Origin: Pseudanabaena sp. FACHB-1998
GTDB lineage: Bacteria; Cyanobacteriota; Cyanobacteriia; Pseudanabaenales; Pseudanabaenaceae
DNA length: 45,237 nt
Assembly: GCF_014696355.1 (NCBI RefSeq)
Contig: NZ_JACJQA010000054.1
Location: forward strand, 1 to 45,237
Reading direction: 5' to 3'
The notes beneath the pieces are model-generated. The model was given only the letters and a program-made list of their open reading frames with translations, made no database searches and was not told where the DNA came from. The position numbers and the translations under genes are program-made. This document shows, in pieces, positions 487 through 7,911 of the stretch. Numbering within the stretch: the first letter of the stretch is position 1; each line of letters starts with the position of its first letter.

Positions 487-1138
487 GCCTTAATTTTTTC
501 CTTTAGTCAGTTCTACATCCCATTATCTCCCCACTGACTAAGCTTTTCATGGTAGTGAAAACACTACTAACACGGGCAACCTTTATAAATGACATCATCT
601 ACATTTGCTCATTACTGTCTAATTTGTGTCACAGGTGACAGTATCGATGCTTGTCAGCAAAATTGAGGTTTATTTCAATAAAATTTTGATCTTTTGTCGA
701 TCAGATCTTAAGCGATCGCTGTATGCTTAAATTGCAGTTTTTTATCTACAGGAGATTACTTACCTAGTTTTCCCCCTTCAGATACAAAAAAGCCAGTGAC
801 TTCGACCTCACCAGCTTTCTTGTAAACCCGAAGGTTTTTAAATTTAATATCCGAAAATGGACAGATGTTGCTTTGGAACGGCAATTTTGTTCAGCGCTTC
901 TCTATATCTTAACGCAAGATATAAGTTTAGCAATAGTTTTTGCTGCGAATTTTTTTAATTTTTTGCAAAAACCAATAAGTGATTATTGAACTGAATTCAA
1001 AAAGTCTGTCTGTTTTCTGATTGAAGTCGCTACAAACCTTACAATCAGGACAATCTAGATGTTTTTAATTTTGCAACTCTTGCAGGCGCAGATCTTTGTT
1101 GAGATCTCCCTTAGCAAGCTCATGGGAGGTCAAAACTA
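487..1138. other. Non-coding stretch upstream of the Rep-like gene
   Basis: No convincing gene. The stretch is AT-rich with one HIP1 site (GCGATCGC) near 713, flanked by TTAAGC and GCTTAA as a short inverted repeat. The sequence just before 1139 holds GGAGG as a ribosome-binding site. If the downstream gene is a plasmid initiator, this is one place to look for the replication origin. I see no regular iterons. Confidence 0.35.
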
Positions 1139-4100
1139 ATGGCTTCCTTAAATAATCAGTATTCTTCTCGTAAGTTTTCACCAGCCAAGTCAAATAATCC
1201 TTGTCCCATCTGCGATGACATCAAGGGCAAATGTAGAATTGCTTCGGATAATCAAGATTTTGTTTTGTGCATGACCCATCCCAGTGATGTTGGTCTGACG
1301 GATTGGAAATATTGGGGCGAAACTAATGGCAGCTACTTTGCGGGTAAGTATGTCCGCAAGCATCCTGAGTCTGAGTTGGAGCGCCAAGAGCGTCACAATA
1401 GCAATTTAAGACTGCGGCTGGCTCAGCAAAAGGCGAAGCGAGATGGTTTGGCGAAGTTGCCTGATGTGACTCAACGCGATCGCCTTTATCAAGGTTATTT
1501 ACACAAACTTAATTTAGATAGTTTAGATAGAGCGGATTTAGTTAGCCGTGGTTTGTCTGAGCTTGAGATTAATCATTTAGGGGCTAAATCAACTAATTCT
1601 GGCTATATTCTGCCAATTAAGCATCCTCAAGGACAAATACTCGGTTTTCAAATCCGTTTACGTGATGCAAATTCTGGGCGCTATCGCTGGCATAAGCCTT
1701 TTGGCATCTCGGCGCAGCAACAAAATGGTGAATTGCCTCTTGCCTTTCACGGTGATATTCAGGTTGATTGTCAGCGTGTAGTTTTAGTCGAAGGTACTGG
1801 CGTTAAACCCTATCTTGCTTCTAAATTGCGTGGTTGTGTGGCAATCGGCGCTTCGGGTGGTCAGTTTGTCGCTAGTAAAGAAACTTTACAAAGTTACTTT
1901 GACGCGATTGGGGCTAAACCTGAGTTAACTCGTTTGGAATATGCAATCGATGCGGGTGATGCGGCTAATCCGTCCGTGATGCGTCGCCATGAGAAAAATC
2001 TTGATTTTCTAGCTGAGCTAGATTTTGCAATTGACATTCTCTGGTGGGGTCAGTTTACTAAAACTGATGATGATATTGATGAGTTATCTGGTGAGGTAGC
2101 GATTCAGCTTTTGACGGTTGAGCAGTTTTTCCAAATTGCTAATTATCAAACCAAACCCAAGTTTTCACCGTTTCAATGGTTGAAAGATAGGCTTTTTCCA
2201 AAGAAGACTGCCAAGGGTTTTACTAATAAATCTCAAGTTAGGCGATCGCCTCAATCGGTCTTACCCCAATTTGAATATGAGTCGGGGACAAGATTAGAAT
2301 CTTGGCGTGATTCATTACTAACTCAAAAACATGTCCTTGATGCTTCGGCGACGGGTACGGGCAAAAGTTATGATGCAGGGCGCTTGCGTCCTGAAATGTT
2401 TGATGGTGTTGAAAGAATTATCTATATATCTAATGATTCGCGTAATGTCACGACTTCCACTTTGCAGGATTGGGCGATTCTGCCTGCTCGTCATAACGGT
2501 CTAGTTTCCAAGTCAGGTAAGTTACGTCGTGCTAAATCGGGTGAGGATTTGCATACTCATGCGAATTGCTCTCGGACCGGGGCGATTTCGGCTCTGCGCG
2601 ATAAGGCAATTTCCGATACTAAGGTCATTTGTGAGACTTGTCCTTTGCTTAATGCTTGTCGTGGTAGTTCGGGTGATGGGTTTGGGTTTCGTCATCAAAG
2701 GGCGATCGCTTTTAATTCTAAGATTTTACGTTCTCATCCCATGAGTTTACCTAGTCCTGATGAGTTTGATTATTCAAAGACTGTATTAATCTGGGAAGAG
2801 GTGTCAGAAAGTTTGACAACTATGCGTCAGATTTCGGTTAGTCGAGATGATGTGGATAAAGCGATCGCCCTTTTGTCTCGTTCTCATCTTGACCATAAGC
2901 AGCAAATTATTGATGTGCTGAATAAGTTACATGAGTTGCTGGGTGATAAGTCATACCACGGGCTAGATTTTCATGGAATTAAATCGGCTATTCCTGAAAT
3001 TATTGATACGACTTTGCTGGCTGAATTGCTAAAACCCAATCTATCAATTCTCGATACGGTTGATGGAATTGCCGATTCTGAGTTTGAAAATGCTAAGGGT
3101 AAGGATAAGCGAGAGTTAGCGAAACTTCATGCTTTGCTGAAACGAGAAACTACTTTCCATGCTGATGAAATTAGACAAAAGATTGACCATGAGGTTCTAA
3201 AACAATGGCTAGTGGAGTTTTTAGATGTTCTCTCTGGGGCTATTTCCCACGGTGATCTGCATATTCAATATGAAAGGTTAACAGTTTCTCTGGGCGATGA
3301 GCGCTTACGGGCGATCGCTCACAAGTCGGCTGCTAATCTTTATCTGGATGCCACGATTGATGTCACAGATCTAGCAATGCGCCTCAATGCTCCTGTTCAT
3401 ACGATTAAGCAATCTGGTGAATTGGTGATGCCGCCGATTTTTCAGGTCAATAATCTAGGACGTTTGGGAATGCAGCGTCGTGAGGAAAAGACGGCTAAGG
3501 TTGAGGCGATTATTGCTCATCTTACTGAGCTTGATCCCACGACTAGGGTGATTGATTTTAAAAAGTTTGCTAAGTCGGATACTCATGGCTTTTGGTTCCG
3601 TGATTCCCGTGGCTCCAATGATTTCAAAGCGGCTAAAACTTTTGTGATTGTCGGCACTCCTTGTGCCAATATTGCCATGCTTCGCGCTGATTATGTTGCG
3701 ATGACGGATTTGCATCCAACTGAGAAAGATCCCGATTTTGCGGCGTTTGTCGATCGCCATATTTTGGCTACCGTTATGCAGTGTTTTGGTAGGAAGGCTG
3801 GCGATCGCTTTCGGAATGGTGATGCTATTTACTTTTTGTCAGATTTTGATTTGGGTGATATGCCCCATACGCTCATCAAATCTGGTGATATCACTGCTAA
3901 GGCGATGTCTAATTTGGAGCTTTTGCAGCTTAAGGTAGCTCAGGTGATTGATTCTGTTGCCGATGGTGGGTTTGATTTGCTCAATGCTTCTCAACGACAG
4001 CTATGCCAGTATTTTGATATTTCCCGTGGTGCTTTGCTACATCATTTTGATTGGATCAATTCGTTATTAGATACTCTATATAACCAATTGATCCATAGTT

Positions 4101-4336
4101 TTAATGAAAATCTGTTTGCTCTTAATGATTCTCATGAGCTAGCAATTGTCGATCTTTGGGCTGGGACAACTGAGTTATTTTTGGCTGAAGATATACCGAT
4201 AAAAGATACCTTGTTTGGGATTTTTGAGTTCTTTGCCAAACATATTCCAAACTATTTACATAGTCATGTTTTGGTACGGCTCTCTGCTGACGCTCGTCAT
4301 AAGTTGTTCTTAAATTTAGCTGTTTTGGCGTTCTAG
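1139..4336 (+). CDS. Large Rep/primase-helicase-like protein, CyRepA1-like plasmid replication protein
   Basis: A 1065-residue protein. Near the N-terminus PCPICDDIKGKC plus a later Cys forms a zinc-ribbon-like cluster (about residues 21-44). Around residues 214-265 RVVLVEGTGVKPYLASKL and LEYAIDAGDA resemble a TOPRIM/DUF3854 module. A Walker A motif, ATGTGKSYD, sits near residues 402-410, with LIWEEVSE as a probable Walker B near 547. A Q-x-x-GR motif follows near 880. Between the helicase motifs, CETCPLLNAC with one earlier Cys gives a C-x(n)-C-x2-C-x5-C spacing like the Fe-S cluster of XPD/DinG helicases. The layout matches large cyanobacterial plasmid initiator proteins (CyRepA1 family). 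The GGAGG at 1124-1128 supports this start. Inferred role: melting and priming the plasmid origin. The parAB genes nearby fit that role. Alternative: a primase-helicase of an integrated element. Confidence 0.65.
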   Translation: MASLNNQYSSRKFSPAKSNNPCPICDDIKGKCRIASDNQDFVLCMTHPSDVGLTDWKYWGETNGSYFAGKYVRKHPESELERQERHNSNLRLRLAQQKAKRDGLAKLPDVTQRDRLYQGYLHKLNLDSLDRADLVSRGLSELEINHLGAKSTNSGYILPIKHPQGQILGFQIRLRDANSGRYRWHKPFGISAQQQNGELPLAFHGDIQVDCQRVVLVEGTGVKPYLASKLRGCVAIGASGGQFVASKETLQSYFDAIGAKPELTRLEYAIDAGDAANPSVMRRHEKNLDFLAELDFAIDILWWGQFTKTDDDIDELSGEVAIQLLTVEQFFQIANYQTKPKFSPFQWLKDRLFPKKTAKGFTNKSQVRRSPQSVLPQFEYESGTRLESWRDSLLTQKHVLDASATGTGKSYDAGRLRPEMFDGVERIIYISNDSRNVTTSTLQDWAILPARHNGLVSKSGKLRRAKSGEDLHTHANCSRTGAISALRDKAISDTKVICETCPLLNACRGSSGDGFGFRHQRAIAFNSKILRSHPMSLPSPDEFDYSKTVLIWEEVSESLTTMRQISVSRDDVDKAIALLSRSHLDHKQQIIDVLNKLHELLGDKSYHGLDFHGIKSAIPEIIDTTLLAELLKPNLSILDTVDGIADSEFENAKGKDKRELAKLHALLKRETTFHADEIRQKIDHEVLKQWLVEFLDVLSGAISHGDLHIQYERLTVSLGDERLRAIAHKSAANLYLDATIDVTDLAMRLNAPVHTIKQSGELVMPPIFQVNNLGRLGMQRREEKTAKVEAIIAHLTELDPTTRVIDFKKFAKSDTHGFWFRDSRGSNDFKAAKTFVIVGTPCANIAMLRADYVAMTDLHPTEKDPDFAAFVDRHILATVMQCFGRKAGDRFRNGDAIYFLSDFDLGDMPHTLIKSGDITAKAMSNLELLQLKVAQVIDSVADGGFDLLNASQRQLCQYFDISRGALLHHFDWINSLLDTLYNQLIHSFNENLFALNDSHELAIVDLWAGTTELFLAEDIPIKDTLFGIFEFFAKHIPNYLHSHVLVRLSADARHKLFLNLAVLAF

Positions 4337-4352
4337 CTGACTATAGTTGAAC

Positions 4353-4955
4353 TCATCTTAAAACCCTAAATTTAGCTAAATATTCTTCTCCACTGCGTGA
4401 GGAGATTGAATTGCTCACTAGTGAAATGTTGGATGTGTCAAAACTAGCTGAGAATAAATCTTGGATTTCCTCAATTGTTGTGCCGAATGGCGGTCCATCA
4501 GGTTGATTGTGCGCCCAGAATAAGGCAATTAATTCTCCCGTTGATTTTAAAATTGACCGCACCATTTTCACATAATCGCGGCGTTGTTCGGGACGAATCG
4601 CGCAGAAGCAAGTATGTTCGATCGCATAGTCGAAACTGTTTGGAAATTCTTGAGGCAATTCAAAAATATCTCTTTGCAGAAATTGCATTGATATTTCCAT
4701 TGTTTGGCTTAGCTTTTGCCCAAGGGCAATTGCGCTTAGCGCAAAGTCAAAACCAATCGTATCAAAGCCATGTTTGGCAAATAAAATCGCATCATGTCCT
4801 TGACCACAGCCTATTACTGCGGGTTTTCCCGCGATCGGCGCTTCACTTGATGCTAATAAACTTGCCAAGGGAGGGGCTGCCATGCCGATATCCCATTGGG
4901 CTGTATTTTCTTGATAACGTTGTTCCCAATATTGGGGATCGGTTGTTAATAGCAT
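4353..4955 (-). CDS. SAM-dependent methyltransferase, TPMT-like
   Basis: A 200-residue class I methyltransferase. The N-terminus YWEQRYQENTAQWDIG is the 'W.xRyxx..t.WDiG' block of the thiopurine/halide-thiol methyltransferase group. Motif I follows as PAVIGCGQGHDAILFA (about residues 46-61), with GFDTIGFDFA as the acidic ribose-binding strand. IEHTCFCAI is the family's post-catalytic block. Such enzymes methylate thiols, halides, tellurite or thiopurines, and the substrate here is not predictable. It converges on the Rep-like gene (16-bp gap) and diverges from the next methyltransferase with a 39-bp gap, so a shared promoter region is likely. Length is normal for the family. Confidence 0.75.
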   Translation of the reverse strand: MLLTTDPQYWEQRYQENTAQWDIGMAAPPLASLLASSEAPIAGKPAVIGCGQGHDAILFAKHGFDTIGFDFALSAIALGQKLSQTMEISMQFLQRDIFELPQEFPNSFDYAIEHTCFCAIRPEQRRDYVKMVRSILKSTGELIALFWAHNQPDGPPFGTTIEEIQDLFSASFDTSNISLVSNSISSRSGEEYLAKFRVLR

Positions 4956-4994
4956 AGACTTGGTTAGACCGAGAATGTTCAGGTAAGTGACTTA

Positions 4995-5507
4995 ATGAAA
5001 CTATTGTCAGATTGGGGTATCACTAGCGATTGGTGGCGTGGTTTACGTGGTGAATACTGGGTGATTGCTCAGGGTATTTTATTGTTCTGCTTTGCAATTT
5101 TACCGAATGCTCAACCTAGTTTCATCAATGTAGATTCACCTGTTGTGCCCTATGTAAGTTTAGGGCTAACTGCTGTTTTTGGTGTTGGCGCAATGATCTT
5201 GTTAGGGCGATCGCTTTTCGATCTTGGTCAAAATCTGACTCCATTACCGCATCCTAGGGATGATGGACAGTTAGTGCAAACGGGTATCTATAGTTTGGTG
5301 CGACATCCTTTATATAGTGGTGTTATTTCTCTTGCCTTTACTTATGCCAGTTGGCAAATTAGTTGGGTACATTTTCTGGGTGCGATCGCTCTATTCCTTT
5401 TCTTTGATGCTAAAGCGAGAAAAGAAGAAGTGTGGCTTACAGAAAAATTTCCTGCATATTCCAACTATCGCACTTCTGTAAAAAAGCTAATCCCTTGGAT
5501 TTATTAG
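4995..5507 (+). CDS. Isoprenylcysteine carboxyl methyltransferase (ICMT)-like membrane protein
   Basis: A 170-residue membrane protein with about four hydrophobic segments. It carries the ICMT/PEMT signature in LVQTGIYSLVRHPLYSGV (about residues 91-108), where RHP-x-Y is the SAM-binding core, followed by a hydrophobic stretch and KEEVWLTEKFPAYSNY. This is the C-terminal half-motif of bacterial ICMT-like enzymes, which methylate small lipophilic substrates rather than prenylated proteins. The substrate is unknown. It ends one base before the parB stop codon on the opposite strand (convergent). Length and motifs are typical, with no sign of truncation. Confidence 0.75.
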   Translation: MKLLSDWGITSDWWRGLRGEYWVIAQGILLFCFAILPNAQPSFINVDSPVVPYVSLGLTAVFGVGAMILLGRSLFDLGQNLTPLPHPRDDGQLVQTGIYSLVRHPLYSGVISLAFTYASWQISWVHFLGAIALFLFFDAKARKEEVWLTEKFPAYSNYRTSVKKLIPWIY

Positions 5508-5508
5508 T

Positions 5509-6441
5509 TTATGAGGGTTCTTCCTGCTCGATTAAAGCTTCAATCTGAGCTACAAGTTTTTCTAAAGACTTTTGCTTTTTCTTGTCATTCCAGACCGATG
5601 ACTTTTTGAGTTTCTGCATAGATGTGGTAAATCTAGTTTTTAATGTGACAGGTTTCTCAGTAGTTTGACCTGCTTTGATATAGCGAATTTTTTCCTTGAT
5701 CTGCGCTAGAGATAGACCCTCGTTAATAGTTTCAGTTAGTAATGATTGCCGAAGATCGGCATCCTTAATCGTGGCGATCGCGGTTGCTTTGGTATATTCG
5801 ATTTGTCCTTGGCGTAGTGACTCTAGTACTTCTATCGGCAAATTTAGTAAAGGCAATCGATTAACGACAAATGACTCCCATTTAACAGTCTGCAATGATT
5901 CAAAGATACTGATAACTTTATTTGAGATCTCAGATAAAAGGTCGTCACGATCTGATTCAGGAGTTACTCGCATTTTGTAAAGATTGGAGATTACTGATTT
6001 CTCAGGAATTGCTAATCTGAGCGATAGGATCTGAAGTATTGCCTCCGTCTCTTCAACTGGGTTTAAATCTTCGCGTTGTAAATTTTCTACAAGTGCAATT
6101 TCATAGGCTTGCTCATCAGTTAACTGATGGATTACAGTAGGAATCTTTTCCAGTCCTAATTCCTTCGCTGCACGAAATCTACGTTCGCCTGCAACTAATT
6201 CATAGCCAGTATTTACAGATCGAACAATAATTGGCTCTAAAATTCCATGATGACTAATTGACTCTTTCAACTCTACCATTTTGGCAGGATCAAAATAACG
6301 TCGGGGTTGCTGTTTGGGTAAAGAGATATCACTGATTAAGATTAATCCGTCTGTTGATATATTATCATTTTCGTTGTCGTCATCATCAAAAAGAGCAACA
6401 TTTGACAGTTTAGTTTGGACTTTTGTTGGTGGTTTTCTCAT
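5509..6441 (-). CDS. parB: ParB/RepB/Spo0J-family partition protein
   Basis: A 310-residue DNA-binding CTPase-type partition protein. ISLPKQQPRRYFDPAKMVEL begins the ParB/Srx fold (about residues 38-57), GERRFRA (84-90) is the nucleotide-contacting box II, and ENLQREDLNPVEE is box III. A helix-turn-helix region follows in about residues 120-230. The C-terminus is basic and then acidic (KKQKSLEKLVAQIEALIEQEE), a likely dimerisation helix. The start ATG overlaps the parA stop as ATGA, so the two are translationally coupled. ParB should bind a centromere (parS), and the two palindromes upstream of parA are the best local candidates. A plasmid or element partition role is inferred from the replicon context. 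Confidence 0.9.
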   Translation of the reverse strand: MRKPPTKVQTKLSNVALFDDDDNENDNISTDGLILISDISLPKQQPRRYFDPAKMVELKESISHHGILEPIIVRSVNTGYELVAGERRFRAAKELGLEKIPTVIHQLTDEQAYEIALVENLQREDLNPVEETEAILQILSLRLAIPEKSVISNLYKMRVTPESDRDDLLSEISNKVISIFESLQTVKWESFVVNRLPLLNLPIEVLESLRQGQIEYTKATAIATIKDADLRQSLLTETINEGLSLAQIKEKIRYIKAGQTTEKPVTLKTRFTTSMQKLKKSSVWNDKKKQKSLEKLVAQIEALIEQEEPS

Positions 6442-7226
6442 AGTTTTTCCATTGTCTCAGATACTTCATCAAAAATTTTTAAAATCGTACCATTGCTTCC
6501 CTTTTTGTTGTTGCTGATAAATGCGCCAAAAGGTTTAAGAGCTTTTGTTGCTTCTGCTAATGCTGTAGCGCGAGGCAGTGGTGAAAATACTTGAGCAATA
6601 GACGCAAGTTGTTCATTAATATCAAACAATGTCTGTTGATCCATTGCTGTCGAAGAAGCATACATCGTAGGCAAAAAACCTGCCAACTTCAGATTTTTAT
6701 TCAGCCTTTTTTGAACCTTCTTGATCGTGCCAAGTAATAGGTCAGTTCCCATTAAAGCTTTAAATTGTGTTTGAATTGGTACAAGTACATGGGTTGCTGC
6801 TACCAAGCTAATTACACTTAAAATGCCTAAACTTGGTGGGCAGTCAATGATAATAAATTCATAGATATCAAGGAAAGGTTCAATGGCATCTTTGAGCTTA
6901 AATTCTCGTAATTCCTCAAGAACTAGCTGCTGCTCGGCTTTTGCAAGATTTAGGTTGGCTGGGCATAAATCCATCGAATAAAGATTACCAATAATTGGTA
7001 AAGCGATTGGCGATTCTCCTTCATCTTCAGCAATTAAAGAATTATAGACACTTAATTTCAATGTCCTTGTATTAATACCCATGAATGCGGTGAGTGATGC
7101 TTGAGGGTCCATGTCTATCAATAGGGTTTTATGTCCTCTGCTGGCAAGGTTGTAGCCAAGATTTTGGGCTACAGTTGTTTTCCCCACGCCTCCAGCTTGA
7201 TTAAATACCGCGATTACTCGGCTCAT
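6438..7226 (-). CDS. parA: ParA-family partition ATPase
   Basis: A 262-residue ParA/MinD-type ATPase. The P-loop near residues 9-18 reads NQAGGVGKTT. The family's deviant Walker A is KGGxxKTT, and here the signature lysine position is A11. The LLIDMDPQASLTAFMG block (about 37-52) and IIDCPPSLG (Walker B, about 126-134) are normal. There is no N-terminal helix-turn-helix extension, so this is a type Ib/chromosomal-like short ParA. It is the first gene of parAB, with parB overlapping by 4 bp. Two identical-core palindromes lie 88-230 bp upstream and could be operator and/or centromere. Function: ATP-driven DNA segregation with ParB. Confidence 0.9.
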   Translation of the reverse strand: MSRVIAVFNQAGGVGKTTVAQNLGYNLASRGHKTLLIDMDPQASLTAFMGINTRTLKLSVYNSLIAEDEGESPIALPIIGNLYSMDLCPANLNLAKAEQQLVLEELREFKLKDAIEPFLDIYEFIIIDCPPSLGILSVISLVAATHVLVPIQTQFKALMGTDLLLGTIKKVQKRLNKNLKLAGFLPTMYASSTAMDQQTLFDINEQLASIAQVFSPLPRATALAEATKALKPFGAFISNNKKGSNGTILKIFDEVSETMEKL

Positions 7227-7314: not shown

Positions 7315-7346
7315 TAATTCTTATCATAACGTTATGATAAGAATTA
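7315..7346. promoter_or_regulatory. Perfect 32-bp palindrome upstream of parA (candidate parS/operator, copy 1)
   Basis: The core TTATCATAACGTTATGATAA is extended by TAATTC on the left and GAATTA on the right, giving a 32-bp perfect palindrome. It lies 89 bp upstream of parA and shares its 20-bp core with a second palindrome at 7427-7454. A ParB- or repressor-binding role is inferred from position and symmetry. Confidence 0.7.
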
Positions 7347-7426
7347 AATGATATGTTTTTACGTCTATTTAGATTGTTTAAGCTATAGAAAATATAGCCT
7401 GAAATTATTTCGTTTTAAGTGGCAAT

Positions 7427-7454
7427 ATTTTTATCATAACGTTATGATAAAAAT
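7427..7454. promoter_or_regulatory. Perfect 28-bp palindrome upstream of parA (candidate parS/operator, copy 2)
   Basis: It has the same 20-bp core, TTATCATAACGTTATGATAA, flanked by ATTT and AAAT. Its centre is 110 bp from the centre of copy 1. The arms outside the core differ between copies, so the core is what is conserved. The rest of the 7227-7584 intergenic stretch is AT-rich and holds no gene I can support. Confidence 0.7.
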
Positions 7455-7584: not shown

Positions 7585-7911
7585 ATGCCGAATATATTCG
7601 AACTATCCCAAGAAGTATCTCAGCTAGAAAAATTTGAGCAAATTGTTGCTGGTAAAAATATCCAGATTGAGCGCATTATTTCCACAGGACAAACTACGAC
7701 CTCTGGGCAATGGTATGACCAAGTACTTGATGAATGGGTGATTTTATTGCAAGGTGAAGCAGACCTTTCCTATACGGACGATACGAGAATAAAACTAAAA
7801 GCAGGAGATTATCTGCTCATTCCCGCTCATACAAAGCATCGTGTTGAATATACCAGCGTCAAGCCAGCCTGTATTTGGCTTGCTGTACATGGCAATTTTC
7901 ACCTTAGCTAA
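7585..7911 (+). CDS. Small single-domain cupin protein
   Basis: A 108-residue cupin. The barrel motifs are visible: GQWYDQVLDEWVILLQGEA (motif 1 region, about 47-65) and LKAGDYLLIPAHTKHRVEY (motif 2, about 73-91), with the Gly-Asp turn and a His in PAHTKHRV. The usual paired His residues of motif 1 are replaced by D/E, so metal binding may be altered. Cupins of this size are often annotated as phosphoribosylaminoimidazole carboxylase-like or simply 'cupin domain'. No substrate can be inferred. Its last 8 bases overlap the end of the next, convergent gene. Confidence 0.75.
   Translation: MPNIFELSQEVSQLEKFEQIVAGKNIQIERIISTGQTTTSGQWYDQVLDEWVILLQGEADLSYTDDTRIKLKAGDYLLIPAHTKHRVEYTSVKPACIWLAVHGNFHLS

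Follow-up and report, generated by a model that had tools for sequence, protein, structure and literature searches.

Twin palindromes upstream of a Pseudanabaena parA gene as putative members of a family of cyanobacterial plasmid centromeres

The par genes and the twin palindromes

The window, i.e. the whole 45,237-nucleotide stretch of Pseudanabaena DNA analysed here, carries two partition genes on its reverse strand. The gene parA (6438-7226) codes for a Walker ATPase of 262 residues (Pfam AAA_31, 4.9e-50) and parB (5509-6441) for a protein of 310 residues with ParB_N and HTH_ParB domains (2.1e-30 and 5.8e-9, respectively). Two palindromes are located between parA and a divergent cupin gene (7585-7911, forward strand), and ParB is presumed to be their reader. 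Identity to the proteins of the complete 125.5-kb Pseudanabaena plasmid ABRG53d is 88.9% for the window ParA and 80.5% for the window ParB. Two copies of the 20-mer common to both palindromes are found on a Pseudanabaena contig titled 'plasmid unnamed4', and several Pseudanabaena plasmids match part of the window's flank. Taken together, these likenesses make it likely that the window contig is a Pseudanabaena plasmid. The flank at 684-5861 comprises an open reading frame of 1065 residues matching no Pfam or NCBIfam family, followed by methyltransferase-like genes. It is kept in part on several Pseudanabaena plasmids, in some of them beside other parAB genes, a distribution that suggests the exchange of par cassettes between plasmids.

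The parA-proximal palindrome (7315-7346) is perfect over 32 bp and the parA-distal one (7427-7454) over 28 bp. Both contain the 20-mer TTATCATAACGTTATGATAA, at 7321-7340 and 7431-7450, so that its two copies are 110 bp apart. Recomputed coordinates thus agree with the preliminary description of two perfect palindromes upstream of parA, and its remark that the outer arms are unlike also holds: within the first four bases beyond the 20-mer, the two palindromes differ at one symmetric position (C/G versus T/A). They are the sole gap-free palindromes with a score of at least 10 in the 45-kb window, against a mean of 0.05 in 20 mononucleotide-shuffled windows, and 100 dinucleotide shuffles returned no match to the 20-mer with up to three mismatches. 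At the same tolerance, a search extended to the whole 4.78-Mb genome found the twin sites alone. The scatter of the 20-mer over unrelated genomes, named earlier as what would speak against a dedicated site, was not seen: exact copies occur on five contigs of the species-genome collection, all titled Pseudanabaena, and on none of the viral contigs. With up to two mismatches, the 20-mer is present in 8 of 97 relatives' genomes, the window's own included.

The parA-proximal copy is also found in four close relatives (L055, L056, L058 and L059), three of which have the second copy as well, at 112 bp (L055), 111 bp (L056) and 290 bp (L059). The spacing is therefore 110, 111 or 112 bp in three plasmids and 290 bp in a fourth. 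Another plasmid (in genome G021) keeps a single copy with up to two mismatches, which indicates that twin sites are not required, and a further genome (G003) has two copies on separate contigs. No terminator was found in the palindrome region, which is flanked by divergent genes. The one match to an RNA element was to a snoRNA model, at 24.2 bits for a gathering score of 46 (Rfam), and such an element was therefore rejected.

A family of AACGTT-centred sites

Related sites were sought in 141 parB loci (the window, L053, L055-L113 and L129-L208), i.e. the window with sets of 60 and 80 regions drawn from part of the listed ParB matches. Their par stretches (363 kb) contain 167 gap-free palindromes centred on AACGTT and at most two centred on any other hexamer. 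In the remaining 641 kb, AACGTT is the centre of eight palindromes and CGATCG of six; five of those eight carry the arms of the locus's own site at 19-20 of 20 bases. An AACGTT-centred palindrome is present in 133 of the 141 loci and lies inside parB in 122, including seven intragenic sites accepted with imperfect symmetry, at 8 or 9 of 11 positions. It is exclusively internal to parB in 92 loci, both internal and outside in 30, and only outside in 11. No site was accepted in eight (L069, L075, L102, L107, L173, L180, L198 and L199), one of which, L180, has an AACGTC version instead. The twin palindromes are very probably members of this cyanobacterial parS family, in which the AACGTT centre is constant, the arms are plasmid-specific and the usual location is inside parB.

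In every listed case, the intragenic site is read in one frame, with AAC-GTT coding for Asn-Val. In a set of 122 representatives with less than 95% identity, it is located at the column that holds residue 166 of the window ParB in 108 and at a second column in four. Within the site stretch of parB, 132 of 151 Asn-Val pairs are written AAC-GTT, whereas codon use elsewhere in these genes would predict 14%. The corresponding part of the window parB, around codons 163-170 (5932-5955, reverse strand), is without a site. The 11 loci with outside copies only comprise the window with the five relatives closest to it (L055-L059) and the clade next to these (L060-L064), and copies in both places are found in L065-L068 and L106. 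Since most loci have the site in parB only, this distribution suggests that it moved from parB to the region upstream of parA in the window's lineage.

Three contigs of 4.7-4.9 Mb (L094, L095 and L097), apparently chromosomes, also encode a member of this ParB family whose gene contains an AACGTT site, imperfect in L094; no ParA homologue was detected beside these parB genes. The other two ParB_N loci of the window's genome (L017 and L018) are devoid of AACGTT palindromes. Near a second ParB_N gene of this genome, at position 528 of L017, lies a near-perfect palindrome of 44 bp with another sequence.

The location of the sites bears on the possibility that the palindromes are an operator only, through which ParB or another dimer represses parAB while the real centromere lies elsewhere. 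Their position upstream of parA is suited to such a role, promoter-like hexamers are enriched around them (8 versus 2.7 +/- 1.6 in shuffles), and 30 loci combine an intragenic site with an outside one, which is compatible with a division of labour. Against this, the absence of any further copy within three mismatches leaves no separate centromere of the 20-mer sequence in the genome, and the 92 loci whose only site near the par genes is inside parB have it in a poor place for an operator. An exclusively regulatory role is thus judged very improbable.

The footprint of the family was estimated from 87 unique intragenic 24-mers, with the left arm of one locus paired with the right arm of another as background. 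Positions +/-1 to +/-3 are constant. Arm symmetry reaches 87-100% at +/-4 and +/-6 to +/-10 versus 34-46% in cross-locus pairing, and is 92% versus 73% at +/-5, 64% versus 51% at +/-11 and 44% versus 26% at +/-12, falling to background at +/-13. Being strong to +/-10 and gone by +/-13, it delimits a footprint of about 20 bp, equal to the common 20-mer of the window. The arms are unlike between replicons (mean agreement between loci of 12 of 20 bases) and alike among copies of one locus: in 30 comparisons of internal with outside copies, 20 of 20 bases agree in 24, 19 in five and 17 in one. Co-resident sites never have a common core (0 of 64 within-genome pairs, 3.2 expected), which is weak evidence for within-genome distinctness as 3.4% of permutations were as low. 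In Pseudanabaena ABRG5-3 (G021), four loci have parS sites of four different types.

The outside copies upstream of parA in two Pseudanabaena clades (L060-L068 and L106) are perfect palindromes of 38-62 bp, whose arms beyond +/-10 are plasmid-specific yet symmetric. ParB binding would not account for symmetry past about +/-12. Such arms, changing symmetrically, are what would be expected if the symmetry served a hairpin, a cruciform or an origin, or were a by-product of template-switch repair copying one arm onto the other, instead of protein recognition. In line with this is a 74-bp perfect palindrome just upstream of another Pseudanabaena parA, on the P. galeata plasmid pPg_03 (L209, centre 18204), of unrelated sequence; that parA is followed by a gene for a 159-residue hypothetical protein, not annotated as ParB. 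As an explanation of the sites themselves, however, structure or repair is very improbable: the symmetry of the intragenic copies is gone between +/-11 and +/-13, no Rfam family is matched at its gathering score, and structure alone needs neither a constant AACGTT nor the coupling to a protein residue described below. For the outer arms specifically, such an origin could apply. Near-perfect hairpins with loops of 3-4 bases, looking like short mobile repeats, lie no more than 550 bp upstream of parA in L057, L058, L059, L082 and L106.

Residue 194 of ParB and the base at +/-4

The arms of the sites vary together with residues of ParB. In the window, codons 192-194 (5860-5868, reverse strand) code for Val-Val-Asn in a predicted helix spanning residues 188-200; across the family, residue 194 tracks the base at +/-4 and residue 192 those at +/-6 and +/-7. 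Asn at 194 is accompanied by T at +/-4 in 65 of 65 loci, His by C in 24 of 24, Ser by A in 32 of 33 (the exception having G) and Thr by A in 10 of 10. The residue therefore predicts the base in 131 of the 132 loci with one of these four; a single other locus has Val with A. The rule is followed in 45 of 45 cases when outside copies alone are considered, and in 49 of 49 representatives below 60% identity with Asn, His, Ser or Thr, to which the Val locus with A is added. Twenty further complete plasmids, hand-picked from 60 listed before their sites were viewed, have no 500-base stretch of parB in common with the first set, although three strains contribute two each and some of the plasmids have a 20-mer in common. 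A site was present in all of them, inside parB in 19 and as two outside copies in Gloeothece Cy782204, and the rule was correct in 20 of 20 (16 Asn with T, three Ser with A and one Thr with A, His being absent).

The coupling is also apparent along a ParB tree constructed after removal of the site-coding stretch and of residues 155, 192 and 194. The base at +/-4 changes 22 times and the class of residue 194 changes 21 times, of which 16 on the same branch for 1.75 expected (p 8e-17). Column 194 ranks first of 253 ParB columns for coincident change (p 3e-12). Next best are two N-terminal columns, 17 (p 2e-6) and 31 (p 7e-6), whose changes likewise coincide with those of the base more often than chance predicts. 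Once overall ParB similarity is removed, the closest association with the arms is that of residues 158, 192, 194, 159 and 155, followed by others, several of which lie in or adjoin the site-coding stretch. The association of residues 159-173, in or beside this stretch, is consequently in part trivial; residues 192 and 194 lie outside it. Of 48 loci with Arg at 192, 42 have G at +/-6 and 46 have G at +/-7, compared with G at +/-6 in 8 of 85 loci with another residue; despite these strong counts, only three changes coincide on the tree.

An AlphaFold2 model of the window ParB (mean pLDDT 89) has helices at residues 147-159 and 188-200, with an extra helix-bearing stretch (160-187) in between. 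The region between these two helices of the helix-turn-helix is the one whose coding sequence holds the intragenic site in the relatives. In the PDB, the model comes closest to chains of ParB and Noc, with a best E of 5e-14 and TM-scores of 0.3-0.5 when normalised by query length. N194 belongs to the second helix. In alignments, this helix matches the segment 'KGQSTIANK' of Noc and the corresponding one of Spo0J, and N194 falls on the conserved Asn of both proteins. Derived from the pairing of Noc Q158 with ParB R173 in excerpts of PMC7383237, N194 would be the equivalent of Caulobacter N178, listed there among the parS-contacting residues conserved in ParB and Noc.

Dimeric regulators in general are typically associated with perfect dyads, and the palindromes might be an ordinary operator bound by ParA or by an unrelated dimeric regulator. 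ParA proteins of type Ia are long and bind their own promoter through an N-terminal helix-turn-helix. With 262 residues and its Walker A motif at 9-18, the window ParA is without such an N-terminal DNA-binding extension, does not belong to this type and is an unlikely reader. The arms track the recognition helix of ParB, with column 194 the best of 253, and binding by ParA or an unrelated regulator is regarded as highly unlikely. The preliminary description had offered a ParB centromere or an operator of ParA or another repressor; its ParB part is supported by a family that accompanies ParB and by the code at residue 194, and its ParA part is unlikely for want of the extension.

Proposed function and comparison with known systems

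The locus has the components of a ParABS system: a ParA ATPase gene paired with a parB gene coding for the ParB_N and helix-turn-helix domains, a nucleotide motif GERRxR in ParB and, at parAB, a palindromic site whose variation follows that of ParB. The motif, GERRFRA at residues 85-91, has G85 and R87 invariant and E86 and R88 kept in at least 90% of 62 ParB sequences. We take GERRxR to be the nucleotide-binding motif of ParB CTPases, and nucleotide binding by the window ParB is predicted from it. It is highly probable, judging from the sequence comparisons above, that the twin palindromes are the parS centromere of this system, that N194 reads the T at +/-4, that ParB is loaded there as a clamp and that the sites probably double as an operator of parAB. 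In the proposed mechanism, a dimer of the neighbouring ParB would bind each 20-bp core, 10 bp per half, through its helix-turn-helix; N194 would recognise the T at +/-4, with help for the outer bases from residue 192 and those near 155-158. ParB would load at parS as a CTP-dependent clamp and then spread; movement of the ParB-parS complex, ensuring partition, would be the task of the ParA ATPase. Situated 89-228 bp upstream of parA, the sites would probably also allow ParB to repress parAB, an autoregulation.

Where the site is inside parB, as in the majority of the related loci examined, one gene carries both the site and its reader. More broadly, and with somewhat less assurance, cyanobacterial plasmids appear likely to possess a large set of self-encoded lock-and-key centromeres: parS would reside in the sequence coding for the linker of ParB's helix-turn-helix, its arms would diversify from one replicon to the next with residue 194 and base +/-4 in nearly one-to-one correspondence, and it would have moved upstream of parA in the window's lineage. 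If true, self-encoded centromeres would keep co-resident plasmids distinct and compatibility could be predicted from sequence. From the AACGTT family, the centromere of many large cyanobacterial plasmids can be predicted. Through the residue-base rule, single substitutions become a direct test of ParB-parS specificity and of plasmid incompatibility, for which naturally matched switches and intermediates with the site both inside and outside parB are on offer. Orthogonal ParB/parS pairs could possibly serve for labelling DNA or stabilising engineered plasmids.

In the open-licence literature searched, no description was found of the AACGTT family, its spread over cyanobacterial plasmids or the rule at residue 194, nor of a plasmid parS for large cyanobacterial plasmids. 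In excerpt, PMC6328274 reports a parB-like gene on pANL and gives no parS sequence, PMC10899382 makes no mention of parS, ParB or a palindrome, and PMC12207404 covers cloning steps only.

Both an intragenic parS and specificity switching of ParB by few residues have precedents, as excerpts of the following papers attest. In Bacillus subtilis, parS-359 is located within parB (PMC4442127). A close likeness is with parABSm of the Thermus thermophilus megaplasmid, a plasmid ParB system whose short palindromic parSm, inside parB, is replicon-specific and was bound in gel shifts (PMC4409726). The Thermus site is 14 bp long, AAGGACGCGTCCTT, and described from one replicon, whereas the cyanobacterial sites span about 20 bp around AACGTT at many loci; moreover, those of the window lie outside parB. 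With the chromosomal systems of Caulobacter, Bacillus and Thermus, the window has in common a homologous ParB with the GERRxR motif, the helix-turn-helix and the conserved Asn at 194, the modelled protein differing by its stretch between the helices. The chromosomal parS consensus is TGTTNCACGTGAAACA (quoted in PMC4409726), in contrast with the AACGTT centre and replicon-dependent arms of the cyanobacterial family. The 16-bp middle of the window site, ATCATAACGTTATGAT, does not conform to this 16-bp consensus, so that the sites are not canonical chromosomal parS, as the preliminary description had stated. The pairing of Asn with T fits the consensus one-sidedly, with A at +4 (T on the opposite strand) but N at -4 (PMC4409726). 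Lastly, the switch between ParB and Noc with its NBS site, which relies on residues 173, 179, 184 and 201, is similar in that a few residues of the DNA interface change specificity (PMC7383237). That switch keeps N178 conserved, whereas its cyanobacterial equivalent, residue 194, itself varies between Asn, His, Ser and Thr with the base at +/-4.
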